Shown in pieces: positions 5,451-64,000 of a stretch of 64,000 nucleotides of DNA. The number at the start of each line of letters is the position of its first letter. The stretch's first letter is position 1. Location: the NCBI RefSeq assembly GCF_027887165.1, contig NC_077231.1:125439987-125503986 (forward strand), written 5' to 3'. Under the pieces are notes generated by a model. The model was not told the DNA's origin. It saw nothing but the letters and a program-made list of their open reading frames with translations, and searched no databases. Both the position numbers and the translations under genes were made by a program. The stretch comes from Monodelphis domestica (lineage: Eukaryota > Chordata > Mammalia > Didelphimorphia > Didelphidae).

Positions 5451-5464
5451 TCAACTCAGAAAGT

Positions 5465-5735: not shown

Positions 5736-5844
5736 AATTCATGGGGATCTCTGAAGAGTATAAGACACTCAGAAAAAAAAAAGTATTTTTTTCCTACTTG
5801 ATCTATTAGTATCAAGGCATGTTTTAGCAGTATGGAGGTCATGG

Positions 5845-8972: not shown

Positions 8973-8984
8973 TAAGAAAAGGTG

Positions 8985-9722: not shown

Positions 9723-10522
9723 TATTGAGATGATCATATAGTTTTGAATGGGTTGGTTTTTAATATGTTTATGTTGGTTTTCCTAATATATCACTGGTAT
9801 AAATCCCACTTTGTCATTCTTAGATGTTCTTAGATAAATAGCTGTAGTCTGAGAGGATTTTATTTAAATTTTTTTTGTGCCAATATTCATTAATGATATT
9901 GGTCCATAGCTCTCCTCCTGTGTTTCATCTTTCTTGAATTGGACATTAGAATTATATTTATCTCATGAAAGAATTTGGATAAAGTGCTTTCTTTCTCAGT
10001 TTTTGAGAATAATTTGCCAAATGTGGATACTATTTATTCTTTACAAATTTGATAGAATCATTCTATACATCCATCAGGACAGAATTTTTTTTTCCTTTGA
10101 TAATTCCTTTTTTTTTTCTTTCATCTAGATCTATTTCCTTGTCTGAAACTAAGGTAAGACCTCTAATCTTCTGATAGATGGTTTGAGTATTTTATATTTT
10201 GGAAGGTATTCCTCTCTTGTATTTTGTTTAGTTAGCCAATAACTGTGCATAACATGTTTTGATTATTCTTTTTTATTTCTTCTGGTTTTGAAGTGATTTA
10301 ACTTTGTTCATTTGCCCTTATATTAATTTGATTTTCTGCTCTCTTCTTTTGAATCAGATTAAGTAAAGACATCCATTTTTTTAGACTTTTCAAAGAATTA
10401 GCTTTTAATTTTATCATTTTTGTGAGTTTTTTCCAATTTATCAATTTCCCCTCCAATTTTTAGTATATCCTCTTTTGTGCTCATTTTAAGTTTATTTGTT
10501 GACTTTCTTAGTTTTTTTTAAA

Positions 10523-10790
10523 TGGGCAACTAGGTGGCACAGTGGGCAGAGCACTGGGTCTGAAGCCAGAAAGACTCATCTTCCTGAGTTCAAATTTGGC
10601 CTCAGACACTTCCTAGCTGTGGGACCCTGGGAGAATTATTTAACCCTGTTGCCTTAGTTCCTCATCTATAAAGAATGAGCTGGAGAAGAAATGGCAAACC
10701 ACTTTGGTATCTTTACCAAGAAAACCCCAAATAGGGTCATGAAGAGTCAGACATGACTGAACACTCCTGAACAATAAAAAACTTTAAATG
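10523..10790 (+). mobile_element. SINE, type A (MAR-like), plus strand
   Basis: Head GGGCAACTAGGTGGCACAGT, core TTCAAATTTGGCCTCAGACA, tail AGAGTCAGACATGACTGAAC. It is inserted in the old L1. Confidence 0.8.
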
Positions 10791-11956
10791 CATATTCAGT
10801 TCATTAATACTTTAAAAAATTATTAATGTATGTTTGTAGGGATATCCTTTCCCCCCTTGAGGATTACTGTAGTTACATCTTAGTTATGATCTCTTATTTC
10901 AAAATTATATTTTTCTTTTACATATTTATTATTTCTATGATTTGTTCTTTAACTCACTTATTAGAGTATTTAATGAATTGTTGTTTTGTTCTATATCTTT
11001 TGCTTATGACCCATGAACCAATTATTATTTTTATTGCACTATGATCTATAAAGTACATATTAACTCTTTCTGCCTATTTACCTGTGTTTACAATATCTCT
11101 GGGTCAATCATGGCCAATTTTTATAAAAGTTGCGCCTGTACACATCTGTGCATATGAACATATATTCTTTTGCAGCCCCATTGAGATGACATAACTATTT
11201 TAAATCTTGTGTTTTTGACAATCTGTACAATTCTATATTTCCCCTCTTGTTTATCTTTATGTATGATTTATCTAAAACTGAAAGTGATATTGAAGTCTCT
11301 TGTTACTTTGTGGTGCTATGTCTTCTTGTAGTTCAATGAATGTTTCTTTTATGAATTTGAACACTAAAGCATTTGGAGCATAAATTTAATTCTATTATTG
11401 GTTTGTTGTCTATAGTTTCTTTCAACATAATGTAGTTTCCTTGTTTATTCCTTTTATTTTTTGAATGCTTTTGCTTTGTAAGATAACACGACTGCAGTTC
11501 CTGATTTTTAAAAAAATTCACTTGATGCATAGTAAAATTTTCCCATTCTCTCTTTTATTTTATAAACAAGGGATTGTAGTTTTGTTTTCTTGTCCAGTGT
11601 CATTTCCCCCTTTTATTCACTCCTTTATAGGTAAAGTTTTAAGTTATTTACTTTTTCCTCTATTTGTTTCTAATATTGTTTCCCCCCTCAAGTTCTTTTC
11701 CTCCCTCTTCTGCTGTAAATATAGCACTATGTTCTTTCAGTTACTTTATTCTTTTTTAAGGTGGCCATTTTCCCACTGGCTACCTCTTCCCTCCACCCTT
11801 TCTCCCAATCCCCACTGCCTCTTTATTTTTGGAGTTTATTTTACTAGTTTCCTTTTCTTTCTTGCTTCTATCTTGTTTACTTCTTCCTTTCTCAGATAAT
11901 CAAAATAGATTCCCTCTTCTCCCTTTTCAACTAGTTCTGTTCATTAGTTCAAAATT

Positions 11957-11980
11957 TGTGTGTGTGTGTGTGTGTGTGTG
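11957..11980. repeat. (TG)n microsatellite
   Basis: About 12 TG units. Confidence 0.9.
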
Positions 11981-12432
11981 CCTTTTTCAAGAGAGTTTCT
12001 TTATGTTTTTATTATCCATCCTCTGCTGGATCCTCATTCTCTAGTTTGTGTCTCCTATAAATATCTAGAATCTATTTTCTGCATTCCTTATGAAATTAAA
12101 ACTTCTGAGGAATCCATCCCAGGCTCTCCATTTAGACATTTTCTGCCCATCTTGTTGAGTAGCACCTCCGTTTCCCTTTTTCCATTGTGCTTGCTCCCAG
12201 AACAATGCCAGTTCTTGCAGGGGACAGAGAAGACATTCTGCCAAGGTAGGATATGCTTCCCCTTCTGCCCATTCTTGATTAGGCAGTCCACTCCTAATCT
12301 CTGTCTTCCTCCTGGATACCTTCTTTCCTCATTTGCCTCAAAATCATCTCCATGGGTTGATACTTTCCTATTCCTCCAGATGGCGGTTGCCCCTAGGAGT
12401 TCCAATTCCCATCTCGTCCACAAGGCAGGTTA

Positions 12433-13865
12433 AATGATTAAAAAAAAATATTTTTATTGTCATAAAACACACTTTCATATTGGTCAGTGTTATAAGAGCA
12501 AAGCCATATATACATAACCCAAACCCCAAAATAAAATCCTAAATACACTGATGTGAAAGACAACTCCAACAGGTTTTTCTCCAGGTTTTGTCTGGAAGTG
12601 GATAACATTCCCCATCATAAGTCTTTCAGGATTGTCCCAGATCATTGCTGTTTTCACAGATAATCATTGTCCAATATTGCTGTTGCTGTATACAATGTTC
12701 TCTCAGTTCTGCTCCTGCAGATCTTTCCAGTTTTTTTCCTGAAATTATCTTATAATTTCTTATAGCACAATATTTTTCATGACCAACATGCTCCACAATT
12801 TATTCAGCCATTTCCCAATTGATGGACATCCCCTCCTTTTCCAATTCTTTGCCACTACAAAAAGAGCTGCTATAAATATTTTTGTACAAATAAGTCTTTC
12901 CCCCTTTTCTCTTTGGGATATAGACCTATTAGTGGTATTACCAGATCAAAAAGTACACAGTTTTATAGTTCTTTGGGCATAGTTCCAAATTGCCCTCCAG
13001 AATGGTTGGATCAGTTCACAACTCCACCAACAATGCATTAGTGTCGCAATTTTACCATATCCCCTCCAACATTTACCATTTTCCTTTACTGCCATATTGG
13101 CCAATCTGATAGATGTGAGGAGGTACTTCAGCATTTAAATTTGCATTTCTCTAATTATGAGTGATTTAGAATATTTTTTCATATGATTATTGATAGCTTT
13201 GATTCCTTCGTCTAAAAATTGTTCATACCCTTTAACCATTTGTCAATTGGGGAATGGCTTGTATTTTTATAAATATGAGAAGTTAGAACTTTATCAGAGA
13301 AATTTGTTATAATTTTTTTGCAATTTGTTGTTTCCCTTTTAATCTTGGTTACATTAGTTTTGTTTGTACATAAGCTTTTTAATTTAATATAACCAAAATT
13401 ATTCATTTTATATCTTATAATTTAGTTGGGTGATAAATTCTTCCCTTCTCCAAAGATCTGCCAGGCAAACTATTCTGTGTTCCCCTAATTTAGTATCATT
13501 CCTAATTTTAGAGTATCACTCTTTAAATCTAAATCATATATGCATTTTGTCCTTATTTTGGGACAGGCTGTGAAATATTGGTCTGTATCTATCTAGTTTC
13601 TACTAAATTGTTTTTCCAATTTTCCCAGCAGTTTTTGTTAAAGAATGCGGTCTTATTCCAAAAACTGGGGTCTTTGGATTTATCAGACACTAGGTTGCTG
13701 AGGTCATTTGCTGCTGGATATTGTGTATCTAATTTACTACATCGATTTACCATTCTATTTCTTAGCCAGTACCAGATTGTTTTGATTATTGCTATTTTAT
13801 AAATACAACTTGAGACTTGGTACTACTAGACTTCCTTCCTTTACATTTTTTTCTTTTCATTAGTT
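12433..13865 (-). mobile_element. LINE-1 3' end, minus strand
   Basis: The minus-strand sequence matches the typical marsupial L1 tail: phrases equivalent to ...GGCAAAGAATTGG..., the small-scale AACCAGGAG-type segments and the A-rich end at 12,433-12,460. It is 5'-truncated at about 13,865. Confidence 0.75.
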
Positions 13866-14434
13866 CCTTTGATATTCCTTTTGTTCAGGTTAAGTGATTT
13901 TTTTTTCAAGCAACTAATTCCCCAGATCACATCCAGCATGAAGTTCTCATCTCATTTCACAGAACATTTCTCTTTATCCATAGGAACATTCATCGGTGGA
14001 ATCCCTCACTACCAAACAAGAGCCCTCTTCTGCATGCCCACTCTCCTGCAGGCTAATTTCTTGGGGCCAGAAGAGTTAAATTCTCCTCACTGCTGGTCTT
14101 CTGTTTGATGGAGGCACATCAAAAATTCCTCTTTGCCCGCTTCCACTTTCATGTACCCTCCCATTTTGTAATGCAGTCCTATAAGGTAGAGTGTCACAAG
14201 GTTCTGTTCATAATGTCACCTTTTCTTTTTCTCTCTTCTTGGGAATATTTAGAAAGAAGTTTCTTACTTGGTGGTCTCTCTGATGCCACTCAGTAGCGGC
14301 TGCTGTTCTTGGCTTCCAGCAGTCTTTCATTCCTCTTGGATTTCTGTTGTTGGGGGTGTTCGAGAAGCAAATAATCTCTTAATATCTGGTTTCCTTTCTA
14401 AGAAAGTTTCAAATGTTTCTATTATTGAATGTAC

Positions 14435-15041
14435 ACTTTTTTAATTTATTTTTTTTATTTGGTCATTTCCAAACATTATTCACTGGAGACAAAGATCATT
14501 TTCTTTTCCTCCCCCCCTCCCCACCTCTCCCATAGCTGACACGCGATTCCACTGGTTATCACATGTGTTCTTGATTTGAACTCATTTCCATGTTGTTGGT
14601 ATTTGCATTAGAGTGTTCATTTTGAGTCTCTCCTCAATCATGTCCCCTCCACCCCTGTAGTCAAGCAGTTGCATTTCCTCCGTGTTTTTACTCCCACAGT
14701 TTGTCCTCTGCTTGTGGATAGTGTTTTTTCTCCTAGATCCCTGCAGATTGTTCAGGGACATTACACCGCCACTAATGGAGAAGTCCATTACGTTCGATTA
14801 TACCACAGTGTCTCAGTCTCTGTGTACAATGTTTTCCTGGTTCTGCTCCTCTCGCTCTGCATCACTTCCTGGAGGTTGTTCCAGACTCCAGCACAATAGT
14901 ATTCCATCACCAACATATACCACAATTTGTTCAGCCATTCCCCAATTGAAGGGCATCCCCTCATTTTCCAATTTTTGGCCACCACAAAGAGCACAGTTAT
15001 GAATATTCTTGTACAGGTCTTTTTCCTTATCTCTTCGGGGT
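14435..15041 (-). mobile_element. LINE-1 3' end, minus strand, with 11-bp target-site duplication
   Basis: This copy is younger looking than its surroundings. ATTGAATGTAC occurs at 14,424-14,434 and again at 15,042-15,052, flanking it exactly. The T-rich tail (the element's poly-A) is at 14,435-14,459. A stretch near 14,813-15,040 still reads as L1 ORF2 C-terminus-like (AEQIVVYVGDGILLCW). It is inserted in the older L1. Confidence 0.85.
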
Positions 15042-15439
15042 ATTGAATGTACCTTTTTAAAAAATTTAAAGTTCAGATTTGTAGAGTAGATCATCTTTGT
15101 GAGCTATATGTAGAGCCCCATTGCAAGTATAGAAGTCTTTGTTACTCAAATTTACTTTCCTTTGTAGTTGAAGATCTTTTTTTCTGAATTCTTACAGAAC
15201 TTGTTTTTGAATTGAATTGTTAAATTTAACCATTAAGTAACTTGGAATAACAAGATTTTTTTTCTAGGAGCAATCTATATATTCTTTCAGTTGATACTTA
15301 GGTTTTGGAAGTTCTGGGAAGTTCTCTTGTATTATTTTCTGTGTTATGATTCTTAGATTTTTTTTTCTTCATCATATTTTTTCTGGCAGACTCATGATCC
15401 TTAGGGTGTCTCTCTGTGCACTCAGTCTTTGAGATAAGA

Positions 15440-16205
15440 GCAGCAACTTATTTTATAGGAATTCCAACACATGCAAATTCGGATATATGTGACTGGCAAT
15501 CCAAAAAAATAGAGGCAAAAAATTCATAAAATAAAAAAATTAATTTCCCACAAAATCCCTGCCATTTCCCCAAGTTCTATAAAGTTTGGCAGCAGTTCAC
15601 CCAATCAAGTTCAAGTTAGTGTGAGTTATTACACTGGTAGGTCCAAACATTAGTTCCACATCAGTCTTTGTTCAGAGTTCTCACTTGAGAAACGTTGTGT
15701 CCTGTCAGAGCAGTGCTTCTCTGTTTCAAGACTATTTAGTTATTATAATAGCCCCAAAATACAATAGTAGTGATGCTGGTAGCTCTCATAGGCCCAAGAA
15801 AAGTCAAAGTCCTTAGGTGTGTTTGTATAAGAAATACTTAGGAAATAATGGAATTTGCTGTTACATACTATTGTAAGATAAAAATTAATATCCAACACTC
15901 CAAGTATTATATTTTATAAGATTTATTAATAATCACTTGAAGTAGAGGAAATAAAAAGACAAAAGTAAAGCCTGAGTAAAGAGAAGTTTCTTGATTGCAG
16001 TAGCAGGAGAAGAGCAAGAGAGCGAGAGAGTGGGGTTACAGAAAATTTATCTCCAAAACCTAAGGATGCAATGCGAGGATGAAAAGTGGGATTCTGGGAA
16101 AGGGAATCCTGGGGTACAAAATTCTAATTACACACTATTTTCAACTTATGTGAAGAGTTAAGGAACGTGTTGGTCAGGTAAAAGGGGTTCTACTGTATAT
16201 TTTCT
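15440..16205. other. Unidentified block interrupting the old L1
   Basis: L1 ORF1-like sequence stops near 15,440 and resumes near 16,210. The 765 bp between read as neither L1 nor a SINE. It may be another old insertion; no ends or duplication were resolved. Confidence 0.4.
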
Positions 16206-17774
16206 TTGGGTAATATGTTTTCTTTGAAAGCTTTTTTTCTTTTATTTTTCTGGATTATTCACTTCTCTGTATTTGTATTCCCAATCTATTGTTATTGTTC
16301 CTTCTGTTGTTTTTTTTTATAACACCATTACAGATTCCACTTTTTCTGTTCCACTTAACATTTTAGTCATACTGCCCATAAATTTTGAATTCTCTTTTTT
16401 TTTCAACTACTCAGGAATAGGGTACTATAGTTTTTCATGTTCTTTTCAGATTTCACTGCGTTCTCCAACAAGTGTTTCTTTTGTTTTGCAGTATTTAGTC
16501 AGAGATGCTTGAGCTAATTTATTTCACCTGGAGGATGTATTTCCTTTGGCTGTTAGTATTTTCCCTGTTGATTTATCTGCTTATGTCTAAGGCTTCAAGG
16601 TTTCTTCCTAAGATTTTAGGTAATGTCTTCCCCCTTTCTTATGCCTCAATTTCTGACTCTCTCCTCTGATGGTAGTTTCCCTGAAGGCTGGATCTCAAAA
16701 GCATCTCAGGCTCCTTTGCCACTGGGCAATTCATGGTTCACCAGCCTACCCAGCTAGTCGTCGTGCTCTTTTCCCACATACATACTCCTGTGGCCTGGCA
16801 GTTCAGAGCATTGCCACACTGCAGCCAGGCTTGGGTGACTTATCATTTGGGAGTTTGGGCCTCTGAGACTCTGGGAGACCTGGGATCAGATCAAGCTCTA
16901 TTTCAAACCCAGATGTTTCCTGCCCCTTTCCCTGTTTGTGTTTCAGAAATTTTTTGTAGTACAGAATGCAGTGGTGCTGCTGGGGGCCTCAGCAAGCTTT
17001 CTACAGCTTCAAGAGGTACCAAAGCACTGGCTGATTGTCATAGCTGGAATCAGCTTTCATAGCTTGGAGATAGGATCTCCATGGCCAGTGGAGAGAGGGA
17101 GGCACAGAAAGGACCAGTATGTGGGGTTGGGTTTTGTTCCAAGCCCCTGTATTGAGCACATGGGTTGCTGGTGCAGCAGTGGACAGGTATGTGGTGAGGC
17201 CGAGGGTCTTGAGTGAGCTAAGTGTAGGCTCAGTTCATGTTGGCTTTTTCTTCTTTGGATTCCAGGTGTCCATGGAGGAAGCTGAAGTAGCTTTATCTGT
17301 GGCACATAATTTGTTTTATTTTGAGAGATCACGGAGTTGAGAAAATCTAGACCTCTTTTTGTCAATATGGCCCAGTGATTTACAGGTTAAGAATTTTAAT
17401 AATTTCTAACTTCCTGATAAGGATGTTCCATGTATATTGTACAGAGTACAATAATTACTAGGATAACTGCTAGGTAGATGAATTAAGAATATAAAATGGA
17501 CACCAGAGTAATACAGCGAGTGATTACATACCAAGCTAGAAGGCCATTATTTAAAGAGAAACAAAACTATAAGCCTCACAAGAAATATCATAAAACCTGA
17601 CGTCACAAGGGCAATATGTAATTCCTGACAAATTTTGTCATTTTCATGTCTTCCTCTCAATAATGCTGACTCTTCTTTATTAAAACATATTCATCTACAT
17701 TCCCCATTTCCCCACATACTTAACCAGAACTGACCCCAACAACCTGAGTTGTATTTATACGTTAACTGAATACC

Positions 17775-18848
17775 AAAGACAAGGTTTATTTTTGTAGAAC
17801 ATTTATTTCTTTCATGAGAGACACTCAATTTTTTTTTTGTCACTGAGAAGTCATCTCAATTAATACATATTATATTTTCCTTCCCCAAGCATCCTGCTTC
17901 GTAGTAGGGAAATGAAGCTGTGATCCATTTCACTACAAGTAAAATGTTACAAAATATTTACAAGGAAAGTTAAAAAACAAACAAAACCAGAAGTAAAAAC
18001 ACAAAAACACTGGATGAAATGCACTAGTTTCTAACAAAATATCTACTCCAGTGGCTTACCCAACCACTTCAGGATTTAAAAAATAAAAGTAGAGACACTA
18101 AAATCCTGTCTATCTCATGCCTTCAAAGAAAAATGGAAATGGTGGTGGTGGTGGGTATAGTAGAGATGTGAAGGGACATTGCTCTAGAAGTTTACCAGTC
18201 TACTCTGAAATATCTTTTTCTTCTGTGCAGTGAATTATGACCAAAGCTAAATAACATTAAGACAATCCTTGCACTGAAGTTAGGAAATGCTCCGATAAGA
18301 ATAAAAATTAACTCCTCTGCACTTAGGTCCAATATATAAGAACCCCTTCCTCTATGAACCATTTTTTCTAATATGAATTTGTGGGATTAAAACTTTCTCT
18401 GGCATCACAGGTTGTCACAGTAGCCCCTCCATCTCTTTCATGAAGGCTTCATACACATCATCCTTGGTTTGTACCGAAACAGGAGCAGAGGGGCCAGATT
18501 TGGGGACTGCTTTGGCAAGGGGTATAGTAGAATCCTCTTCTGATTTTCTTTGGGGAGCAGCAGTAGCTCCTTTGTTCTCTCGTCGAACTCTCAGTGCAGT
18601 GGGCACAAACCTGGTAATTTCTGCCTTGGGATTAGTGATTTGTGGCTTGGCACTGATGGTTGCTGTGGCTTTCTTCTCAATAGTGGCTGCACTGGTATCA
18701 TCCACTTTGGGTCTCTGAATCAAATTGGGTGGGGCACTTAAAACCCCTGGATTCGGTAAGGGAGCTGGTGGAAAAAGCCCAGGTGGAGCAGGTCCAAGAG
18801 GAGGCACCAAAGGTGGGCGCATCATACCAGGACGAGGTGGAGGGATGC
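17775..18848 (-). CDS. WBP11: WBP11 exon 12 (C-terminus, stop, 3' UTR)
   Basis: The acceptor is TTCTTCATAATAG. Coding runs from 18,848 to the TGA at 18,415-18,417 and ends EAFMKEMEGLL. About 640 nt of 3' UTR follow, to AATAAA signals complementary to 17,802-17,807 and 17,785-17,790. The transcript end is set by the signals only and is approximate. Confidence 0.92.
17785..17807 (-). promoter_or_regulatory. WBP11 polyadenylation signals
   Basis: Two AATAAA hexamers on the minus strand (TTTATT at 17,802-17,807 and 17,785-17,790) are the first good signals downstream of the WBP11 stop. Cleavage would be expected roughly 10-30 nt further, near 17,760-17,790. Confidence 0.55.
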
Positions 18849-30800: not shown

Positions 30801-33800
30801 GCCTTGCCACGGTCATATCGCTGTTACTAGTGGGAGGCTTAGATTCCAAGAGGCTCTTTTCACCCTGCTTTGTGGCTGCTCTATTCCATCCTTCTTTACT
30901 GTAGACCAAAACTCATTTGTGCTTTCTTACTGGGTAGAATTCTTGTCCATTGTTTCACCACAAATTCTCCAGAGGACATATCCCACGTGACATAGGACTG
31001 TACTCTAGATCTTACTATTTCATACATGCTAGCACACTGCTAAGGATATCTTTTACTATCAAACAACACAGACCCAAAGATTCTTTAAAATCCCCTCTCT
31101 ATCCACTGCATATTTGAAGATTATAATCTTATTTTGTGCTTAATAACTGCTATTTAACTATGATAATGCTCCTTTACCCATAGGCAGAGGTTTTTTTGAG
31201 AATAGAGGGTGGCTGTGCACCAGGCAATGGGATGTCTTGGATCAAGATGTTAGAAGGAGCATGAGGCATATCTGGCAATGGGATGCTTTCCACTTCAACA
31301 TGTTGAGCATTCTGGAAAATAAATAAGTAGATGAAAAATCAATACAAGAACAAAAGAGGCAAATTCAATATAGGAATCAATTATTTTGCAAACTGGATTA
31401 ATTTCTATTCAAATAGAAATATGAAAATAATAAGAACATAATATAAACAAGAGGCAATCTTAAATGAACAATACCAATAACTTTCCAAATAGAAGACATC
31501 TCTCTCTTCAACCAAAGGATCAAAACAATCAAATTTGTGTTTTAATTCTACTCTTTTTGGGATGTAATTTCTTTGAAATAAAATAAATGTTAAAATACAA
31601 TGTATTTGAATGAATACAATGTAAACGTCTGGGTAAACAGGGAGGGCATTGTAAAATTTTATAAAATAGCACAAAACTATGGGATGAAATAACAAAAAAC
31701 CAGAGCAATCTGTGACCATGTTCTATAGAACCAGTAAGTGTAAAATAAACCTCTTCTTATAAGATTAGGCCTTGGTGGTGAGATTACCATGACAGTCTCC
31801 CCTTCAAGGATTAAGCTTATAGACCAAACTCATGGAAAAATATAGGCAATACTATTTTTCAAATGTTAGTACAATTAGTACAGACCCCCAAATAATATTT
31901 TGTTTGCCACTAAGCTTTCATTCTCCTAAGAGGAGAGGAGTCCTCTTTTATGCCAGAGGACTATCACAAAACACTTATACTCACTGATAAGAAATTCTTT
32001 CCTATATTGTTTAGGTAGGCTGGGTTTAGGCATGTGTCACCTTTCCTGAAATTTTCTGTTCCAATCTATAGGCAATATCCAGTCTAGTATGTGACTGCAG
32101 AGCAATTTGTTATTTGTTTTAAATAGTTATTGCAATATATTTGTTAGAGGAGTTTTATAATTAGGTCCCCCCCGCCCATACCTAAGCTCTCTTAACAAAT
32201 TGGCCAAATAATATTCATATCAATAGGAGATAAGAGTACATAAATGAAATAATTTAACCCAAAATGTTACATTAAAAGATATGAAGCTGAAAAGACCCAT
32301 TTTTTAAAAACCAGAAGAAAAAATAAATTATTTTGAGGTTCTTCATTAAAAAAACAAACTTGATTACCTTTACTGCATCAAAGTATTGACTGAGTTGGGC
32401 CCTTTTCTGCTCATATTCTACCTCTAACTTTCTAAGTTCTTTGTAGATATCTGGATTTTCCTTTTCATAGAGTCGGAGAATGCGCTCAAAAGTTTCACGA
32501 AGCTTTTTTCGTTTATCTTTTAGCACCTTCTCATTTAGTTGTGGTTGTTGTACTGGATTGAACTCTGATGGAAGAGAAACAGATAATTTTTTAAAAAAGG
32601 GTAACTTTCTTGGGTAATATATGTTATGTCATATATGGTTCATAGAGATCATAAATTTAGAGCTGGAAGGAATCTTAGAGATCATCATTTGCAACTCCTT
32701 CATTTTATAGATGAAGCTGAGGCCTAACCCACATAGGGTGTAAAGAGCCCATATTTTAAATACAGGGTCTCTGATTCAAATCTAGTACTTTCCATTGCAC
32801 CACAAATCAAAGACATTGACCTATACTGATTATGCAATGTTCACCAAAAAAAACCACCACACCCCTATAAATGGTATTTAATAAATGAGTATATTCTATT
32901 CTCTCTCTAAAGAAATAGTACCAGATGGCTTAACTTCTATAAACAAGTATAAATATTGATAATTATTTCTCTAAGAATGACTACTTTCATCTCTATAAAG
33001 TCCTAAAACTTTAAATAAACTATCCTACAACTCATTAAGCCAAAGTATTCACACAAAAATCTGGTCCTCCTGCATCCTCCTACTTACCCATCTCATCTAA
33101 TTTCTCCATGTCCCGGATAATTTGTTTGGGATCCTTCATCTTTAGTACTGCAGCTCGTACCATCATTCGTTGTTTCTTATTCTAAGAATGTTAAAGGATG
33201 GCAGAAAATCAAAGGGTTGAATTTCAAATAATATTTTATTTCAACTCTTACTGAATTGTGGTCTTTATCTAAGCTATTACTCACCTATTCTAACACATCA
33301 AAGTTCAGTTAAAAAATATAATCACATAATTTTTTAAAAAAAGAAAAACATTTTTTGAATCCCAATTGATCTTTAGTAGATCTATGTAATGCTATGTTAG
33401 CATATACCCCTGTTGTACATTGGCATTTTCAGTGGAGTTTGGAGATGAATTCTAAGCCAACTTAAACGATTACCAATCATGTGTGGTGAAAAGAAATTTC
33501 TCTAGTTATTCTTATTAGTTTATAATATGAAACCATTGTAGGGAATTATTTGTTCATTCACCTAACAAATATTTATCCACTGTATAAATCAATAAAGTAA
33601 AACCCTTGATTTTCTTAAGAAAATTTTCATATCACAAACCTAACATTGACTGATTTCAGAATATAATTAATGATGCAAAATATAGCTTTTTGGAACCAAA
33701 AAACTGTGATAAAAATTACAGTAAAGGTTATGATAGCACATTTATGACAAGAAACTTTCCTTCTTTGTTTTGCAAGCTTCTAATTGAGACTGAAAGCTCT

Positions 33801-40690: not shown

Positions 40691-41423
40691 ATTACATAAA
40701 TGGGATTTACTATTATTCCCCAGTCCTTCAAAATTTTCATTTCTTACCACCTTCTTCTAATAACAGTCCTTTAACCAAAAAAGATTGAGAAACTGGAACA
40801 AACATCTGGTAACCACAGTTTAGGAAAGCTAAGTTTTTGCCCAAAGACATGACAGTTGCTGGAAGAAACCCACAACACCCTCAAAATCCATTGAAAACCT
40901 AAAGGAGGTTCAGGGGAGTATCTAGGAGAGGCGAGAACTCAGCTCCAAGATTCGGGCTCATTCCCTTATACCAGGGGCCTGGCAGGCTCACTCACACTCG
41001 CCTAAAACGAGCAGCAACAACAGGGACAACCACAGAGGCCATCCAGGCCTCCGAAAGGACCCGCAGCGACGAATGGCCCCCCGAATCCAGGCCTACAAGG
41101 GAGGACAACAAGCACTTTCCCCAAACCAGTGCAACAAGAAAGCCACAAACCGAGCCCAAGCGAGTCAGCAACCTGACCCCGTGCGGGCCTCCTCCCCACG
41201 ACTAGGCAGGGATCAGCTGGACTCCGCCGCCTCCCGAGGCCAGGGGGCGGATCTCTCCCCGGATGCTTCAAAAGGACCGCGCAGGCGTCCGGAAGTGGGG
41301 TCTGGGGATAAGGAAGCGGGGAAGAAGAGCCTCGAGATATCCTCGAATTTACCTTTAGGCTGCTCGCTGGGGCCACCGAGGGCCGCAGGCCCGCGCGCCA
41401 CGCCGGCTCGCGCTCCCTCCTAC

Positions 41424-41540
41424 CTCTCCTCGGGCCGGGGGCGGGGGCGCCTTTGCCTTCGCCTCTCGCCGGGGCCCTAAGCCACCGCCATCTTGAAGCC
41501 GCGCGCCGCACCGCCTCTTCACGTCACTTCTGTTTTCTCA
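41424..41540 (-). other. WBP11: WBP11 exon 1 (non-coding, 5' UTR), predicted
   Basis: Read on the minus strand, a GC-rich segment ends in GAGGAGAG followed by the donor GTAGGA at 41,423. It contains AAGATGGCGG, a YY1-type motif often found just downstream of start sites, and lies just below a TGACGTGA box. The 3' end rests on the donor. The 5' end is only approximate because no transcript was available. A four-residue upstream ORF lies inside it. Confidence 0.55.
41477..41491 (-). CDS. Upstream ORF in WBP11 5' UTR (MAVA, stop)
   Basis: If exon 1 is transcribed as predicted, its ATG within AAGATGGCGG opens a four-codon ORF, ATG GCG GTG GCT TAG. It would precede the true start, which is in exon 2. 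Such very short uORFs can dampen translation, but the ATG may simply be part of the YY1 motif. There is no direct evidence for its use. Confidence 0.3.
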   Translation of the reverse strand: MAVA

Positions 41541-42329
41541 GCGCGTTGCTAACGTCGCAAAGCATTTCCGGCCCCTGCAACCATAGAGAGGGCCTCGGAG
41601 CTAGAGGAACTTCCGCTTTTGAATTAGCACTCCTCCTACCACGCGCTTCCTCAGTGCAGACTGGGAAAGTAGTGGGTTTGGTGCCTGCGTTGCTATGTTG
41701 CTCTTAGGCCCACCCTCTTCCCCCTGCCCGTATCACCTCGGGAGTTCTTGTTTCAGCACACAAAGACAATAGTCATCCTCGGTTACCGAGAGACTACTAT
41801 TACTCTACCTCCTAATACAATTATCTAGGCCGTGGACGGAAAAAGAGCCAGAGAAGCAGGGAAGGGATCTGATTGGCTGGAGGGGGCCTTTGTTCCCCTT
41901 CGAACACTGAGCCTGCGCATTCTATTACCTCGTTGCTATTGGTTCGCCCTCTCCTTTAGATTGGACCACTGTTTTATTGCCCTTTAAGGTTTAACCCCGT
42001 TGTTTACTGGAGTCTGGGTAATGCTAGTTAGCCAGCCCACCTCTTCACCCTCAGTGAACGACGAATTACCTTCATTTTTCTCTAGTCCCTGAGAACTTCT
42101 TCCTTCCCCCATCCCCATCCCCACAGGAACATGTCCGTCACTGCAAGCATTTCACTTCTTAAAAAAGCATAAGTTTGTGGGGAGGGGTCCTGCTTCCAGT
42201 CACATAAACTAGGAATTCTTCTGGTGGGTTGAAGAGCTTTTAGGATCAAACTGGAGGAGGTCCCCAAGCCCAGTATCTAGTTTTTACAGATGAGGGAAGA
42301 GATCCAGACAAGTTAGATAATTTGTTCAC

Positions 42330-46066: not shown

Positions 46067-49699
<3,633 letters not shown>

Positions 49700-55040: not shown

Positions 55041-55342
55041 AATGTGAGGTGACTTACTAAATGCCATATTACTAGTTAGCAATAAAGCCAGAATTGGAAT
55101 TCACATTCCCTGACCAGAACAGAGTTTGGTGTGCTGTATATTAATCATATGAGACATCTTCAAACTAAAGGGAGGTATAAGACTATTTTTAGTTTAGGCG
55201 TTAACTATGTGATCAGGAATTACAATAAGTCTATATACAGTTGACATAGTGACTACTTACAGTACCTTAGCGAAGAGACTATGATTTTTTTTCTTCCTAT
55301 ACTTTGATTTTCTTCACTTTGGTTTCCTGATTTGTTTTGCAG

Positions 55343-55366
55343 TGCTTCTACTTCGTTCTTGGAAGA
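55343..55366 (+). other. Start of C12orf60 coding exon, 5' UTR part after splice acceptor
   Basis: A long T-rich tract leads to TTTTGCAG ending at 55,342. The exon therefore starts at 55,343, with 24 nt of 5' UTR before the ATG. This implies at least one upstream non-coding exon. Confidence 0.7.
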
Positions 55367-56464
55367 ATGTCATTAATGTCAGAAGCAGATAAAGAAAGAT
55401 TATGCCAGTGCAGTAACACTTTTTACAATAGCCTACAAAAGCTTAATACTTCCATAAATACCTTCATTGGATTACTCACCAACTGTGGCTGCCCAGTACC
55501 TTGTATCAGTGTCAATGAATGTGGAACCATTAAGGATTACTTTGAATCCGTAGCATGTTACTTGAAGAAGGTCCAGTGTGACATAGAATCAAAAGACAGA
55601 GCCAGATGTTGTGATCCTTGTAGGAGTGATCCATGTCAATTTGCCAAGATGACAACAGCCGTGTCTTCTGTGGAAACTCCCTGTTCAAAAAGTACTAAAA
55701 TGTTATGTGAGTCAACTAAAATTGCTGACTGCAACCCCTGCAGTCCCTGCAACCCCTGCAACCCCTGCAGTCCCTGCAACCCCTGCAACCCCTGCAGCCC
55801 CTGCAATCCCTGCAATCCTTGCAACCCCTGCAATCCCTGCAACCCCTGCAACCCTTGCAACCCTTGCAACCCTTGCAGCCCCTGCGGCCCCTGTGGTCCC
55901 TGTGTTCCCTGCGGCCCCTGTGGCCCACTTGTTTGTATGCTGAAAAATGTCAACTTTTTTGAGAGTATGGAAACTGCTCTTTGTCAGCTGATGAAGTCCT
56001 CAGTCATGGAACTCCGACTAACAGATCTCCGTAAAACTACCTGTGAAGCAGGACCTGCCCGAGCAATTTGTTGTTCACCTTGTCCACCACCTTGTCCACC
56101 ACCTTGTCCACCGTCACCTATGGACATTCTAGAAAAATTGAGCAAGCTGATAGAATGTCCACCTCCCTGCCCACCCCCATGTCCACCCCCTTGTCCACCC
56201 CCCTGCCTACCCTCTTGTCTACCCCCTTGTTTACCTGCCTGCATACCATCCTGTCTATCCCCTTGTCTACCTCCTTGTCTGCCTCCTTGTCTATCCCCCT
56301 GTCCACCCCCCTGTCCTCCCTGCCCACCCCCCTGCCCCTGTCCACCGTTGTCACTTGCTGATCATCTCCAAGATATTTGCAAGACTATGGAGCCTGTTGC
56401 AATGTTAATGCAACAAGTCATTAAGAATATGGAAGCCAATCTGGACGCACTGAAATTATGCTAG
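55367..56464 (+). CDS. C12orf60: C12orf60 orthologue with Cys/Pro-rich tandem repeat expansions (365 aa)
   Basis: This single coding exon opens 24 nt after a strong acceptor (TTTCCTGATTTGTTTTGCAG). The ATG at 55,367 gives [12 protein letters not shown], which lines up with the human start MSSESEKDKERL as I remember it. An in-frame TTG upstream lies across the splice site and is not a start. Conserved helical blocks: about 5-36, TIKDYFESV...YLKKVQ (54-70), [20 protein letters not shown] (191-210) to [16 protein letters not shown] (252-261), and [14 protein letters not shown]...[10 protein letters not shown] (331-363). Between them lie 21 X-P-C triplets (123-185; 12 NPC in total with SPC, GPC and VPC), a short CPPPCPPPC block (238-247) and a long PPPC/LPPC array (264-327). 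About 63 of 365 residues are Cys. No stop interrupts the arrays. The human protein is about 245 residues and lacks the arrays. Function is unknown; the composition suggests disulfide cross-linking or metal binding. An alternative would be an unrelated Cys-rich gene, but block order and synteny argue against that. Confidence 0.8.
55730..55921 (+). repeat. 9-bp coding minisatellite (AAC CCC TGC)n, X-P-C triplet array
   Basis: After one leading TGC codon come 21 nine-base units reading Asn/Ser/Gly/Val-Pro-Cys. Units differ mostly at synonymous sites (AAC/AAT, CCC/CCT) or switch AAC to AGT/AGC, then GGC/GGT near the 3' end. The reading frame is kept throughout. Confidence 0.95.
56075..56343 (+). 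repeat. 12-bp coding minisatellite (TGT CCA CCA CCT)n, CPPP/CLPP arrays
   Basis: Two arrays of 12-base units encode CPPP: a short one (about 56,075-56,117), then, after a conserved [10 protein letters not shown] helix, a longer one (about 56,156-56,343). Central units have drifted to [12 protein letters not shown] and CLSP. The frame is open across both. Confidence 0.9.
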
Positions 56465-56712: not shown

Positions 56713-56754
56713 AATAAATTTCCTTTGGTGTGGCATCTGCTTAACAAAATAAAA
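56713..56754 (+). promoter_or_regulatory. C12orf60 polyadenylation signals
   Basis: AATAAA at 56,713-56,718, about 250 nt after the stop, and a second AATAAA just before the A-run near 56,748 mark the likely 3' end of the plus-strand transcript. Confidence 0.5.
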
Positions 56755-57026
56755 AAAAATTCAAAAGACCAAACATCACTGCTATATTTGACAATTTTTC
56801 TGAGCACTAAATGGTTCTCTTAGAGCAAAACTAAAATTTTTGGCTTTTCAACTTTGAGATAATTTACATTATATACCTGCTGTCTGCAAAAACAAAAACT
56901 CAAAAAATTGGCAAGTCCAAGATTGTATAAACCTTATCCTTGAGCAATGGATATTGGCCAACCTCACAAGATAGCCTGAGGGATGATTAGATTTAGGGCA
57001 GTAAAAAAATACTTTCCCCCCTCCTT

Positions 57027-57145
57027 TTAAAAAAATCCTTTCTGTTTTAGCTCTTAAGACAGAAGGTCAAGGGCTAGGCAGATGTGATTAAATGACTGGC
57101 CTAAGGTCACACATCTAGGAAGTATCTGAGGCCATGCTGTCCCCT
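57027..57145 (-). mobile_element. SINE type B fragment, minus strand
   Basis: Antisense core and tail (GGCCTAAGGTCACACATCTA, GAAGTATCTGAGGCCATGCT). The head is partly lost. Confidence 0.65.
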
Positions 57146-57851
57146 ACTTGCCTTTTTTTGCCTACCTGATCACCCATGCCAGTTCTTACAGTGCTTAAAA
57201 TAGTGTATTGAAAATAGTAAGTGCTCAGTGTTTGTTAATTTGTTTTCCCAGAAAGAAATAGCCCAAGTGAATGTATAGTATTGGATTATGTGAATTGGGC
57301 CAGTGCAATTATAAATTTCTTCTCGAAATATAGACTACCTCAGGATGTAATAGATTATCCCTTGCCTAACAGTTTTTAGACAGAAATCAGATGATTCCTT
57401 GGTAATGTAATAGTAGAAGAAATGTTCAGGCATGAGTTGACTAGATGGTATTTGAAGTCCCTTCTGATGATCAGATTCTGTGATTTTGTGATCTCTGTTT
57501 TACCTTCTTACCTTCAGACTTTGGAGTTTGAGAAACACTTGTCCCAACTAGTGGACTGTATATTTTGTTAGTGCTTAAAAATATATGTATTCTCATCAGT
57601 ATGGCAATATCTTTTAATAGTGCAGCTTAGAATTCCTGAATATCTTATGGGGCCAAAAAGCAATCACCTGATGGCCAGCCTTTTGGTGATGAGCCTCTTT
57701 GAACTCTAATCAGCTAGCCCTCAAACACTACTATTATCCTCAAAATATTTCCATCTTGTTGCAACTGCCAGAGTTTATACTCAGCTGGCATATTCTTTGG
57801 GAACTCAGGTCAGCACCATATCACAATGAAGCATTTGCAGTAAGACTTTAG

Positions 57852-58231
57852 TAATGTTCTCCCTTTACTATCAAAATTAAATAAGAAATAATAAGGATAA
57901 GCAAGTGGTATAGAGTGAGCGTCATCTTATAAAAGGCCAAGGAAAATATTAAATTGATAGTGTGGAATTGTTCTTGAGAAACAAGGAGCAATTTCCTTTT
58001 AATTATACAATAAACACATGGTATCTTATAGTACAGGCCCTTAATGTTCTCCCTTTACTATCAAAATTAAATAAGAAATAATAAGGATAAGCAAGTGGTA
58101 TAGAGTGAGCGTCATCTTATAAAAGGCCAAGGAAAATATTAAATTGATAGTGTGGAATTGTTCTTGAGAAACAAGGAGCAATTTCCTTTTAATTATACAA
58201 TAAACACATGGTATCTTATAGTACAGGCCCT
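57852..58231. repeat. Perfect tandem duplication, 2 x 190 bp
   Basis: Positions 57,852-58,041 and 58,042-58,231 read as the same 190 bases (TAATGTTCTCCCTTTACTAT ... GTACAGGCCCT), head to tail, with no difference seen by eye. The unit is single-copy looking, with no known repeat in it. Confidence 0.95.
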
Positions 58232-58499
58232 TACCAATGGCAATACACTTCCACTGTTTTATGCATGAAATATTTTACCTGCTATAGAAGAGGAAATTTC
58301 AACCAGATGTTATAGATGCAAAGATAACTAAGAAAGCAGGGATGAGACAAAGTTTTTAAATAGGCCAACTGAGATTCTACTCAAAAGAGTATTCGCTTAG
58401 TAATGTTCACCATATAGCTCTCTATTACTCTTTCAGAAGCCCTATATGAGGTTTGGAGAGATTTATTCTGAGGCTTAAAAGACTAGAATATTAGTGTTT

Positions 58500-59290
58500 T
58501 TAAAATGGTCTTTGAGAAAGTGATAAATGTTGGAGGGGGTGTGGCAAAATTGGGACACTAATACACTGCTGGTGGAGTTGTGAATTAGTCCAAGTATTCT
58601 GGAGGGCAATTTGGAATTATGCCTAAATTGCTTTAAAAGAATGCCTGCCATTTGATCTAGCCATAGCACTGCTGGGTTTTTATCCCAAAGAGATAAGGAA
58701 AAAGACTTGTACAAACATCTTTATAGCCGTGCTCTTTGTGGTGGCAAAAAATTGGAAAATGATTGTGGTATATGTTGGTGATGGAATATTTTTGTGCTGA
58801 AAGGAATGATGAACTGGAGGAATTCCATGTGAACTTGAAAGAGCTCCAAGAATTGATGCAGAGTGAAATGAGCAGAACCAGGAGAACATTGTACACAGAG
58901 ACTGATACACTGTGGCACAATCCAATGTAATAAAAGACTTTTCTACCAGCAGCAGTGCAAAGACCCAGGACAATTCTGAGGGACTTATGAGAAAGAACAC
59001 TATCCAAATCCAGAGAAAGAACTGTGGGAGTAGAAAAAGAAGAAAAAACACATGATTGACCACATGGTTTGATGGGGATATGATTGGGGTTTTGATGTTA
59101 AAAGATTGCTCTATTGCAAATATGAAAAACATGGAAATAGGCTTTGAACAATGATACATGTATAACCCAGTGGGAATTGCTTGTCATATTCGGAAGTGGG
59201 GAGGAAAGAGCGGGGGGTGGGGGGTGGGGGAGGGGAAGAAATCAAGAATCATGTAAGGATGGAAAAATATTCTAAATAAAAATTTTTTAA
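58500..59290 (+). mobile_element. LINE-1 3' end, plus strand
   Basis: This is a clear sense-strand L1 tail: ...TGGGTTTTTATCCCAAAGAG..., GTGGTGGCAAAAAATTGG, GTGATGGAATATT, GAGCAGAACCAGGAGAACAT, ending in GT/G-rich sequence and an A-rich tail at about 59,290. It is 5'-truncated at about 58,500. Confidence 0.85.
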
Positions 59291-59619
59291 ATTAAAAAAA
59301 TAAAAATGGCCTTTGATTCAGGGAAGAAGCTTAGGTTCATTAAAAACAACAAAATACTACAGATCCTAAAAGGCCATCCATTCTGTTGTTATCCTCCTAT
59401 TCAATTCACTGCCCATTTGCACTGTCTTGTCTTGTGTATAAACAGATGAGCTCTATGAGTGGTTCATCTAACTTCATCATAGTCTGGACAGCAGGCATTC
59501 TTCATTCACTTGGTTCTTTTTATGTGGAGGTGGATAGTTAGGCTAAATGTTTAGACTGATTATGGATGCCATTTCCGAAGCTCTATAGAGTTCTAGGCCT
59601 AGCTTTAATCAGTATGATG

Positions 59620-59770
59620 AAAGAACACTGTTTATGGAGCCAGAGAACTGTATTCAAATCATGCCTCTGATGAACAAGCCATGTGGCCTTGATCATCAGC
59701 CTCTTAACCTCCTTGTCCTTCTGTTTCCTTTCCTATAAAAAGAGAGGATTGAATTAAATGGCTATACAAG
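59620..59770 (+). repeat. MIR-like repeat, plus strand
   Basis: GGAGCCAGAGAACTGTATTC, CATGTGGCCTTGATCATCAG and TTCCTATAAAAAGAGAGGAT. Confidence 0.55.
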
Positions 59771-61159
59771 TATCTTTTCCACATTGGGACTTTCTTCATT
59801 GCAATTTCAATATATTGATGGATTGGTATAAGAAATTAAATGTGAATTTTTTTGGGAGATTTACAAAAGCTACAGATGACATACATAGGCTAAAAGATGA
59901 CAGAAAAAAATTGGAAACTCAGAAATGCATACAATGTATGTATGGCATTACATATTATCAATAAATTTTAGCTTTTAATATCATTAGTATACACAATTTC
60001 TATTGTATACATTCCACAAAAGAAAAAAGAAAAAAAAATCAAATTTCTTCTTTGGTATAAAAGGAAGACCAAAAAAATTAACCCAGATTTTCCAGAATAC
60101 AGGGGCTCTATGTCCCTAACCTCCATGATGTGGAAGGGATTCCTGTACTATATCTTTTAGCCAGCTGTGTTGTTTTAAAGATTTAAGTTACTATGGAACA
60201 TTACCTGTACTTTCTAATACAATTATATTCAAATGTCATAATTTATTTAACCATTTTCCAATTGCATAGAAAAGGCATTTCTGATTATAGTATTAAAAAA
60301 AGCAGTGGATATTTTCTTACAGATTGTTTCTTTTAATGATGTTTTTGAGAATTGCTGTGTCAGAAGGTATGATGAAATTGTTACTCTTGTTGAATATTGA
60401 TATATTGTCTCCAAAATGTTACTAGACAGCTGTCTTGTGAAATACATATTAGAGTTACAAAATCTGGGTCAATTTCCTTTATCTGAGATGCTTAATGCAA
60501 TGATAATTTCCCCCCAATACAAATCTTCTTTTCAAGTATAACTGCACCAATTTAATACATGCTAAATTAGAGTTTTGTTTGTCTGATTGGACATATTAAT
60601 TTCTTTTATATTTCCTGTCAGTTAGTTGGGAATTTGTACTCAATTTAATAAAGGTAGTAAATAGTCTATCAAGTTTGTTGATTTTCAAAAATACTGCTTT
60701 TTATGCTTCAATCCCAGTAAAGCCAAGAAAAATAAACTACTGTTTGAAAAGAACTGTGCAAAAAAAACTAGAAAGCAGTTTGGGGAGGGGGAAAGGATGG
60801 TTCAGCATCATGTACCATATAACAGAATAAGTTTGAAAAGAATGCTTTACTTAAATATAAAAGATCTAGTAATTTCTCATATGTTCAATTAAAGGACCTT
60901 TTAATAAACAAAATAAATTCAGCTAAGATAAAAAGGAAAACCTTTGATTAAGAAAAATCCTTCCATCAAATACCTTTGATAAAGAAGTGATCAGTTTATT
61001 TGCCACAATGAAGATATTTGTTCATTCTCCCTTGTTTTGAAACAATAGCTGGCTTCTAAGTCCCTGTAAATGTGTTTCCTATTCTGTAAGCCACATCCAA
61101 ATTCTATTCTATTCAGACTTATTTATATAATTTTTTTCTTGTAATTAGGTGTTCTGAAT
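59771..61159. other. Intergenic, little recognised
   Basis: AT-rich. A stretch near 60,235-60,460 weakly resembles an antisense L1 tail, too degraded to call. There is no sign of the next expected gene (ART4 in human order). Confidence 0.4.
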
Positions 61160-61680
61160 TGTCATGAATGAAATCCACCAGAAGAAGACTGAGGCATGTT
61201 TTCTCTAAGCAAGACAGCATTTTATTAACAGGCGATACTACTTGCCAATAGAATGGATCAATGCCTGCCTTTATGTCAAAGACATGGAGAAGGACAGTTC
61301 CCCTTTTATAGGTTTTGGGGAATATAGAATGACGAACAGAACAGGATAGTAGAGGGAATAATACATTTAGTCAGTTGGTGACATTATGGGGTTGAGGACC
61401 ACAATGCGATTGGTTACATAAATGAGGTGCAAAGGACAATATGCTTGGTTAAAATTTAAGAATGAGGGGCTAGCAACAGCCCCCACCATCTCTGTGACTA
61501 AGAAATGCCCATTATTTGAGTCTGCTTGCAAGGTTAAAGGTACTGGACCAGATGCCTTTGAAGGACAGAAGGTGGTGTACAGATACTGGTCCAGATACTC
61601 TGGTAGCCACTGATATCCCTAAAGGATAACAGATTTCCTTGAGATAAAAAAAAGGACAGTGATTAGCTGGAGAGTGGATT
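61160..61680 (-). mobile_element. Possible solo LTR (fossil), minus strand, family not resolved
   Basis: On the minus strand a TATAAAAG box (complement of 61,303-61,310) precedes AATAAA (complement of 61,221-61,226) by about 80 nt, followed by a short U5-like tail. The layout fits an LTR. No coding remnant is attached. Ends are approximate. Confidence 0.45.
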
Positions 61681-62482
61681 TCGAAACATACCTCATTACT
61701 GCCTGGCTGAATTTCTGCATTAAGTTCAGAGATAAAGAACCATGACTTAGGGAGTTATAGGACAAAATCAATTTACTTTAAATAGAATCAATAAAAAATG
61801 ATATAAAATCAACTAAATTTTCTCAGTATGTAGTCAGTTTCAATATTACAATGTCTCTTTATACATACCCTGATATCTTACACAATATCATCTTTTTATA
61901 TTTTCTCCTGCCACCTTTCTTATGGGCTAGGGATAATTGCATATACTAGACACAAGCTTAATAAGGAGTCACCAAAAAGACATGTTATTTCGGATTGGGA
62001 TCCCCTTGGGGATTGATTGACCAATAACTGACTCAATAAGTGTTCTTTACTAGCTGATTCTGCCCTTTTGGATACTTCTTCTTCTACTCTGGCTATCCGA
62101 GGATTAGGCAACCAAAGAAAATGAACATTCTACATATTGCTACACATACTTGATATCAGTGAGGCTCATGGCATACTTCAGAGTTCAGGAAGCTGAACCT
62201 AGAGGCCAACTATGAATGAAGCTACCATGTTAGAGCAGTGATTTTAGACTGCAAGACTGCTGACTTCTCTCTGATTCCATACATTCTTCAAGAAATATTT
62301 TTAGCTTTATCATGGGAAGTCTTATATATCATTTCCAATATGTTGTAATTCCTGTTTCTGTTGCAAATCACTTTATCTCTCTCTTACCTCAATTTCCTCA
62401 TCCAGGTGGGAGGTATGGATTAGATGGTTTCTAAGATCCCTAAATACCTGGTCCTATAAGATATATACCAAATGAATTTTGT

Positions 62483-62728
62483 CATTGTTGTTCAGTCATG
62501 TCTGAATCTTTGTGAGCCCATTTGAGGTTTTCTTGGCAAAGATACTGGAGTGGTTTGCCATTTCTTTGTCCACCTCATTTTACAGATATGGAACTGAAAT
62601 ATTCAGGGTTAAATGACTTGTCCAGGGTCACACATATTAATTATCTGAGGCCCCAGATTTGAACTCAGGAAGATGAGTTTTCTTGACTCCAGGCCTGGCA
62701 CTCTAACCATTATGCTACCTAGCAACCT
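62483..62728 (-). mobile_element. SINE, type A (MAR-like), minus strand
   Basis: Antisense tail GTTCAGTCATGTCTGAATCT, middle AAGATACTGGAGTGGTTTGC, head TATGCTACCTAGCAACCT. Confidence 0.85.
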
Positions 62729-62774
62729 CTGGAAATTAATGCAATTATATAAGACCAAGAGACATTCTACTATA

Positions 62775-63480
62775 GGTAAACGAAATGAACATAAGAATAG
62801 AAAATACTATGAATCTGAAAGATTGCCCCCAAATCATTAATAATAAGAGAAATACATATTAAAATAATCTTGAGATATCACCTCATACCTAGCACATTGG
62901 CAAATGACACACTATGGAAACTGCTGATATTGGAGGGGACTAGACAGGATTTAGTGATGGAGTAGCTATAAATTTGTTCAGATAATCCAGAAAGCAATTA
63001 AGAATTATGCAAAAAAGAAATGACTAAAATCTCCATGGCTTTTGAATCAGTAATCCCACTCCTGGACATAAAAGTTCAGGAGGTAAAAGATAGAAAATGA
63101 GGCCTTGACATTCATTATGGCCCTTTTTATGGTAGCAAAGAACAAAGTAAGTGCCAATTGAGTAGGAACGAAAAAGCAAATTGTGGTATATAAATGAAAC
63201 AGACTATAAGAAATGACTATAAAGAGCTCAGAGAAATTTGGGAAGATGTGAATTCTTCCTCAATGAACTGAGCAAATTTAGGGCAAAAATATAATCAATC
63301 ATAATAAGAGTGTAAACAAAGAACAACAACAACACAAAAAGAAACTGAATCATAGTTGGCCCCAGAGAAGCCATGTGAAAATGTACCTCCTTTCATTAAA
63401 GAAAGGTGAGAAACTATGAATATTGAATCTTGGATATGTAGGCATGGTGCTGGTTGCTTTTGTTAAACATCTTTTTTAAC
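62775..63480 (+). mobile_element. Degraded LINE-1 3' region, plus strand
   Basis: Phrases equivalent to the L1 tail are visible (ATCACCTCATACCTAGCACA, TTATGGTAGCAAAGAACAAA, CAAATTGTGGTATATAAATG) but strongly mutated. It is older than the copy at 58.5 kb. Confidence 0.65.
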
Positions 63481-64000
63481 CTTTAGGTTATTACCAGGGG
63501 AATTCACTGAGTATAGGAGAGGTATATTTGGAAATCAATGTGATATTGAAGTGAAAGTCATCAACAAAACTTAAAAATTAGTTGAGTTCCTTCTCTCAAA
63601 GGATATAATCATTTGCATAGTGTAACTCCTTGATACGGTTCTCATACACATACCTCTTTGCAAATCTCTTCCTTATACTTTTACATCACAGAAATTCTTT
63701 TTTGATTGGCAGTTTTAAAAATCACTACTCATTTTTACTTTCAGGTAAGGTAGGAGATGAATTAATGAGTCTCTGGTCAGATGAGGAGGGGGGAAGAAGA
63801 ATGGAGTTAGCCCTCCACTTATAAGTGAGACTGGGGAGGAAAAGCCAGAAAGAATTTTTACACTACATTGCTAGTACCAGTTAGTCCCCAAGAGTTTTTA
63901 TTGAGAACTAGGTATGATCTTTACCTTGCAATGGGTCCCAACTCAGGCTAGGTTTAGGGGTGGGGAAACAAGATTCCATGGACCTTAGTGATAGAAGACT
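63481..64000. other. Window end, nothing recognised
   Basis: No gene, repeat or RNA signal that I can support. Confidence 0.5.

Follow-up and report, generated by a model that had tools for sequence, protein, structure and literature searches.

Genes and features of the window

The window analysed here comprises 64,000 nucleotides of the Monodelphis domestica genome (NC_077231.1, positions 125,439,987 to 125,503,986, forward strand). It carries a C12orf60-like gene, whose predicted product is designated P0001, a second gene of the same DUF4533 family and frames of WBP11 (Table 1). One of four putative WBP11 frames was identified by its match to a PDB sequence and gave weak coiled-coil matches in Pfam. 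For the remaining three, which we take to be WBP11, Pfam returned no family. The second DUF4533 gene, which we take to be SMCO3, yielded two weak matches among PDB sequences (E 0.029 and 0.19). WBP11, SMCO3 and ART4 are described as flanking the H4C16/H2AJ pair in human and other mammals (PMC9526256), and ERP27, SMCO3, C12orf60 and MGP are listed for a human association locus (PMC7844411). No ART4-like frame was recognised by eye among the frames of at least 45 aa at 57000-64000 of our window, and no frame of histone H4 length was noticed at 1-18000 in the list of frames of at least 100 aa. The gap between WBP11 and the second DUF4533 gene contains a CpG-rich stretch with observed/expected ratios of 0.77, 0.90 and 0.76 in 500-base windows starting at 41001, 41251 and 41501, respectively. 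Scans of the window for Rfam families and tRNAs were empty. A LINE-1 ORF1 fragment is located at 4432-4917 on the minus strand (Pfam PF02994, E 1.1e-13).

Table 1. Features of the window, in window coordinates; residues refer to P0001.
Feature	Position	Strand	Remarks
Frame holding WBP11 exon, synteny anchor	32275..32628	-	PDB 7abf_X, WW domain-binding protein 11, E 5.7e-35
CpG-rich region separating WBP11 from the DUF4533 paralogue	41001..42000	.	CpG observed/expected; candidate shared or bidirectional promoter (putative role)
Paralogous DUF4533 gene	46070..46744	-	no arrays; 4 Cys in 225 aa; Pfam E 8.7e-58 for 235-aa frame 46070-46774
Untranslated start of coding exon (predicted)	55343..55366	+	follows AG acceptor 55341-55342; sequence only
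C12orf60-like coding frame (P0001)	55367..56464	+	365 aa then stop; Pfam PF15047, E 1.5e-19
DUF4533 block 1	55388..55675	+	residues 8-103; profile 1-91; 12 Cys; Pfam; helices in low-confidence model
Array 1, ODF1-like	55730..55927	+	residues 122-187; 21 X-P-C triplets (X = N, S, G, V)
DUF4533 block 2	55931..56047	+	residues 189-227; profile 117-156; isolated fragment E 1.4e-4, 22 bits, below curated cut-off 28.6
Array 2a, PPPC/LPPC type	56075..56119	+	residues 237-251 (15 aa); Tandem Repeats Finder and sequence
Short 12-aa block between PPPC arrays	56120..56155	+	residues 252-263; helix 251-261 in low-confidence model
Array 2b	56156..56347	+	residues 264-327; PPPC/LPPC-type units, then shorter irregular ones; 17 Cys
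C-terminal block, contains DUF4533 block 3	56348..56461	+	residues 328-365
DUF4533 block 3	56351..56434	+	residues 329-356; profile 198-225; isolated fragment E 0.0018, 18.4 bits, below curated cut-off 28.6
Two AATAAA hexamers, candidate poly(A) signals	56713..56753	+	at 56713 and 56748; sequence

P0001 matched the Pfam family DUF4533 (PF15047) with 71 bits (cut-off 28.6) in three stretches, which follow one another in family order; the three blocks were also scanned against Pfam as separate pieces. The model of the family comprises 225 positions and aligns around the arrays, i.e. these sit where profile positions 91-117 and 156-198 are skipped. When the genome (3,586,138,614 bases, 13 contigs) was searched for DUF4533, 6 matches were obtained, 3 of which exceeded the cut-off. 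The latter represent two loci, the C12orf60-like gene and the gene at 46070-46744, both located in the window; one further match below the cut-off falls into the C12orf60-like gene and two weak ones lie elsewhere. The two genes are adjoining paralogues on opposite strands and the sole DUF4533 loci of this genome over the cut-off.

A preliminary description of this DNA had regarded the helical blocks as homologous to C12orf60, and the profile search and the neighbourhood bear this out. Three of four blocks aligned to human C12orf60 with a score reached by 0 of 1000 shuffles, a result to be taken as a lead; for the 12-aa block at residues 252-263, 45 of 1000 shuffles reached the score and the alignment is not convincing. 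As judged from sequence, the assignment of the gene at 55367-56464 to C12orf60 is well supported, and C12orf60 is its best name: the DUF4533 blocks occur in order, WBP11 and a second DUF4533 gene are nearby, three blocks tentatively align to the human protein and the alignment to the paralogue is weak (25.8 bits, E 7e-4). The gene is probably the C12orf60 orthologue. In block order, neighbourhood and block alignments it resembles C12orf60 and its family, but here Cys/Pro arrays fill both stretches between the blocks.

The coding exon contains no internal stop codon (55367-56464, plus strand; 365 residues and a stop). The stop-to-stop frame is open from 55331, and a T-rich tract precedes the predicted AG acceptor at 55341-55342. 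Translation and Tandem Repeats Finder agree with the preliminary description, which had listed an intact 365-codon exon with 21 X-P-C triplets and two PPPC/LPPC arrays and had put Cys at about 17%. By our count, 63 of 365 residues are Cys (17.3%), as opposed to 2 of 245 in the human protein, and 73 of 365 are Pro; a CCDPC motif is present in one copy at residues 81-85. The 21 tandem units of array 1 span residues 123-185 and correspond to 9-base arrays at 55729-55893 and 55878-55926, whereas the units of arrays 2a and 2b are of the C-P-P-P and C-L-P-P type and were detected as 12- or 36-base arrays at 56076-56112 and in three overlapping rows within 56156-56337. Two AlphaFold models of low confidence (mean pLDDT 39.8 and 44.1), which rest on input alignments of two sequences, were used for the helix pattern alone; in the former, helices fall into the conserved blocks and almost none into the arrays. 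When P0001 was compared with PDB sequences, each of the 5 matches fell on its array stretch, the chains matched being Pro-rich, collagen-like or of the NP-repeat type; a search of NCBIfam gave nothing near a cut-off.

Units of 9 or 12 bases hold a reading frame open unaided. Therefore, stronger evidence against chance comes from the DUF4533 blocks, from the codon-phase pattern and from the gain of Cys outside the arrays. Cys accounts for 21 of the 219 residues outside the arrays, PC pairs containing 4 of these Cys, compared to 4 of 225 in the DUF4533 paralogue (Fisher p 3e-4). This enrichment indicates that the gain of Cys in the C12orf60-like protein is not merely a by-product of repeat slippage.

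Array 1 and the C-X-P tail of ODF1

The best non-self match of the C12orf60-like protein in its own genome, the best candidates being scored, is located on contig C3 (167423095-167423541, minus strand; 47% over query residues 40-187, E 2e-19). This exon matches HSP20/alpha-crystallin (PF00011, E 4.3e-6) and then continues into a C-terminal C-X-P array. Judging by the HSP20 match and the C-X-P tail, the exon is ODF1. In the reverse search, for which 146 aa of the ODF1 exon were used, array 1 ranked first among the non-self matches (81% over 49 aa, E 1.7e-8); the 12 rows comprise the ODF1 piece itself, the C12orf60-like gene twice and 9 rows in loci taken as tandem repeats. The two proteins are reciprocal best non-self genome matches and their likeness consists in a tandem NPC/SPC/GPC peptide: the predicted X-P-C triplets of array 1 are the C-X-P repeat of ODF1 (HSPB10), i.e. 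the same tandem peptide. Cys is frequent also ahead of the ODF1 array, amounting to 11 of 106 residues in the exon of this genome, and three of these are already C-X-P-spaced. However, no HSP20 match was found in P0001, for which DUF4533 was the sole Pfam family listed at E <=10 (search filters drop most matches above approximately 0.1). In addition, the C12orf60-like gene employs other codons, its array is internal and it carries the extra PPPC/LPPC arrays; array 2 is without counterpart in ODF1.

The preliminary description had likened the protein, for a cross-linkable or metal-binding character, to keratin-associated or sperm mitochondrial capsule proteins, but the X-P-C triplets of array 1 match the C-X-P peptide of ODF1 instead, and we rank both of these analogies lower. 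SMCP, the sperm mitochondria-associated cysteine-rich protein, is a Cys/Pro-rich sperm protein with CCPP-type repeats and is not known to contain X-P-C triplets. ODF1 is described as belonging to the outer dense fibres and as a spermatid protein, its C-X-P domain mediating the binding of OIP1 (PMC8913478). Its Cys content is reported to be high, and its loss in the mouse to cause sperm decapitation and infertility (PMC9499666).

The search of the genome with the C12orf60-like protein produced 29 rows: 2 fall into the gene itself, 1 is ODF1, 21 lie in loci that were translated or read in part, and 5 were left out (C3:271562827, C4:415294883, C1:758465325, C2:470435593 and C1:362662925). The 21 further rows were taken as tandem or collagen-like repeats; one of the translation listings of these loci kept frames with more than 12% Cys and at least 4 PC. 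Two tandem loci may be mentioned in their own right. Contig C7 carries a 366-codon open frame (local positions 2813-3910, plus strand) made almost entirely of LPC, LPS and FPS triplets, which is probably a tandem repeat, and a tandem repeat of approximately 5 kb at C1:1466593-1471609 contains HPC-containing units (e.g. SGPLHPCSI) and several open frames.

The two genes write the shared peptide differently. The 22 Pro codons of array 1 comprise CCC 17 times, CCT 4 times and CCA once, whereas the 17 Pro codons of ODF1 comprise CCA 10 times, CCT 6 times, CCG once and CCC not at all; the ODF1 count starts at CDPCNPC and leaves out three earlier C-X-P steps. Asn is encoded by AAC 10 times and by AAT 3 times in array 1, but by AAT in all 8 cases in ODF1. 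These differences correspond to chi-square p values of 1.2e-5 (Pro) and 0.003 (Asn), which are descriptive as the copies of an array are not independent. In contrast, Cys codons are similar (TGC 19 and TGT 3 in array 1, 13 and 5 in ODF1; p 0.47). The best ungapped DNA match between the two arrays is 68% over 72 bases, 13 of the 23 mismatches being at third positions. As the Pro codons differ, with CCC prevailing here and CCA in ODF1, the simplest reading is that the same peptide grew independently in the C12orf60-like gene and in ODF1. Gene conversion from ODF1 was also considered and ranks lower on account of the codons, although homogenisation within the arrays could hide an old transfer or a shared origin. 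The reciprocal match to the C-X-P tail of ODF1, with different codons, is in our view the most useful new result of this analysis. It would mean that one peptide repeat arose on two separate occasions in this genome, in genes that are otherwise unrelated to each other.

Codon differences within the arrays and competing readings

Between neighbouring units of array 1, the Pro and Cys codons show no difference at the first or second position and 7 at the third; for the Cys codons of array 2b, the corresponding numbers are 0, 0 and 6. For array 1 the test took in all 21 units, and for array 2b the 12 regular units that come first; the irregular final part of 2b and the whole of 2a lay outside it. 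When transitions are weighted by 4, a value of our choosing, the probability of an all-synonymous outcome is 1.3e-4 for array 1 and 1.2e-4 for array 2b, whereby the choice of units for motif fit biases toward a synonymous-only result. Since one changed unit may count twice, runs were also counted by eye (4 and 3), giving p 0.006 for array 1 and 0.011 for 2b. Addition of GPL, which is likely a decayed edge unit, changes the count for array 1 to 1/1/8 (p 9e-4; when runs are counted, 0.008 to 0.02). When all codons of the units are considered, third positions carry 17 of 27 differences in array 1 and 21 of 33 in array 2b. Non-synonymous and synonymous codon differences then number 10 and 11 in array 1 and 11 and 16 in 2b, the non-synonymous ones falling at X and at some Pro positions. 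Cys is present in 12 of 12 regular 2b units at fixed spacing, up to the spacing change. By these counts, change is tolerated at X and at some Pro positions but not at Cys, and the arrays look as if they were kept by selection on the peptide.

These patterns have to be weighed against replication slippage, which could have lengthened G+C-rich 9- and 12-base repeats in a weakly constrained gene, the frame staying intact since each unit length is divisible by three and the product having little function. Units of these lengths would indeed keep the frame unaided, and other LPC, FPC and LPAC tandem repeats exist in the genome, one with a 366-codon open frame. Moreover, non-synonymous unit differences are common at X and some Pro positions, and a list of genes carrying homozygous loss-of-function variants includes human C12orf60 (PMC3868571), a point that we count against a functional reading. 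However, among the units compared, array 1 varies only synonymously in its Pro and Cys codons, as does array 2b in its Cys codons. Counted by runs, the probabilities are 0.006 and 0.011, and 0.008 to 0.02 once GPL is added to array 1. Cys is enriched outside the arrays, and ODF1 makes the same peptide from other codons. We consider slippage with little function rather unlikely.

A second alternative concerns the age of the arrays, which might date back to the therian ancestor, with a loss in placentals in place of a gain here; such a history would be compatible with the functional reading that we prefer. Data from one genome accommodate an old origin, and the units within the arrays have diverged from each other. 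Against it stand the paralogue, which is free of arrays, and the 225-position family model aligning around them, and we regard such an origin as unlikely. The same two observations fit the earlier statement that C12orf60 has turned into a Cys/Pro-rich repeat protein, of which the direction and the date rest on one genome.

It is improbable that the gene encodes a structural protein of cornified tissue (hair, skin or claw), disulfide cross-linked in the manner of keratin-associated or avian EDCRP proteins. KRTAPs and avian EDCRP are described as Cys-rich tandem repeat proteins that are thought to be convergent for disulfide linkage (PMC4423139). The Cys-rich tandem repeats, the Cys content of 17% and the single CCDPC motif, which recalls the CCDPCQ core described for avian EDCRP (PMC4423139), speak for such a likeness. 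However, repeat units, loci and exon structure differ: the main arrays here are X-P-C and PPPC, and a predicted splice acceptor precedes the coding exon, whereas KRTAPs are described as single-exon genes with a TATA promoter (PMC4423139). Furthermore, no KRTAP or epidermal protein was recognised in the genome-search rows inspected, i.e. 24 of 29. A metal-binding protein whose arrays serve as thiolate clusters for zinc or copper is very improbable. The dense Cys would suit it, and the first piece of 122 aa matched metallothionein, though at chance level (8.5 bits, cut-off 31.8, E 3.3). However, no metal-binding Pfam family reached its cut-off, and Pro before every Cys of array 1 would be more in keeping with an extended arm than with a folded cluster.

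A candidate structural protein of the sperm tail

The reading we prefer, for and against which the balance is about even, is that the C12orf60 orthologue is a helical scaffold turned into an ODF1-like, cross-linkable structural protein, probably of the sperm tail. According to this model, (X-P-C)n and (PPPC/LPPC)n arrays would have grown between the conserved DUF4533 blocks, presumably in this lineage as far as one genome can tell, and further cysteines would have been gained inside the helical blocks themselves. The gene would be expressed in spermatids, where the helical blocks may position the protein or drive its oligomerisation, and the extended Cys-Pro arms, dense in thiols, may form disulfide links with one another and with ODF1-type proteins. 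ODF1-type proteins are supposed to be disulfide-linked. The result would be an accessory structure that is stiff and probably located in the sperm tail, in the outer dense fibres or the connecting piece. More tentatively, C12orf60 might have evolved the C-X-P peptide of ODF1 independently, from different codons, and have become a second C-X-P protein in the outer dense fibres or connecting piece of marsupial sperm; by extension, the members of DUF4533 might act in germ cells or flagella throughout the mammals. The little-known C12orf60, in a form that shares its repeat with a fibre protein of the sperm tail, provides a concrete lead to where the protein may act.

An analogous case is provided by the Drosophila Mst(3)CGP sperm genes, which are not known to contain a DUF4533 part. 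These male-specific genes (Mst84D, Mst87F) are described as containing a repetitive Cys-Gly-Pro motif, and deletion of the Mst84D family as disturbing axoneme assembly and leaving fewer motile sperm (PMC10645079).

Among the literature matches listed, no Cys-rich C12orf60 is reported in titles or abstract openings, subscription journals and supplements being outside the search. In these matches, the name C12orf60 appears in no title or abstract and is mentioned 1 to 4 times per paper. Database annotations of marsupial C12orf60 may already contain the present sequence without comment. The human C12orf60 locus appears in work on muscle weakness and osteoarthritis (PMC7844411).
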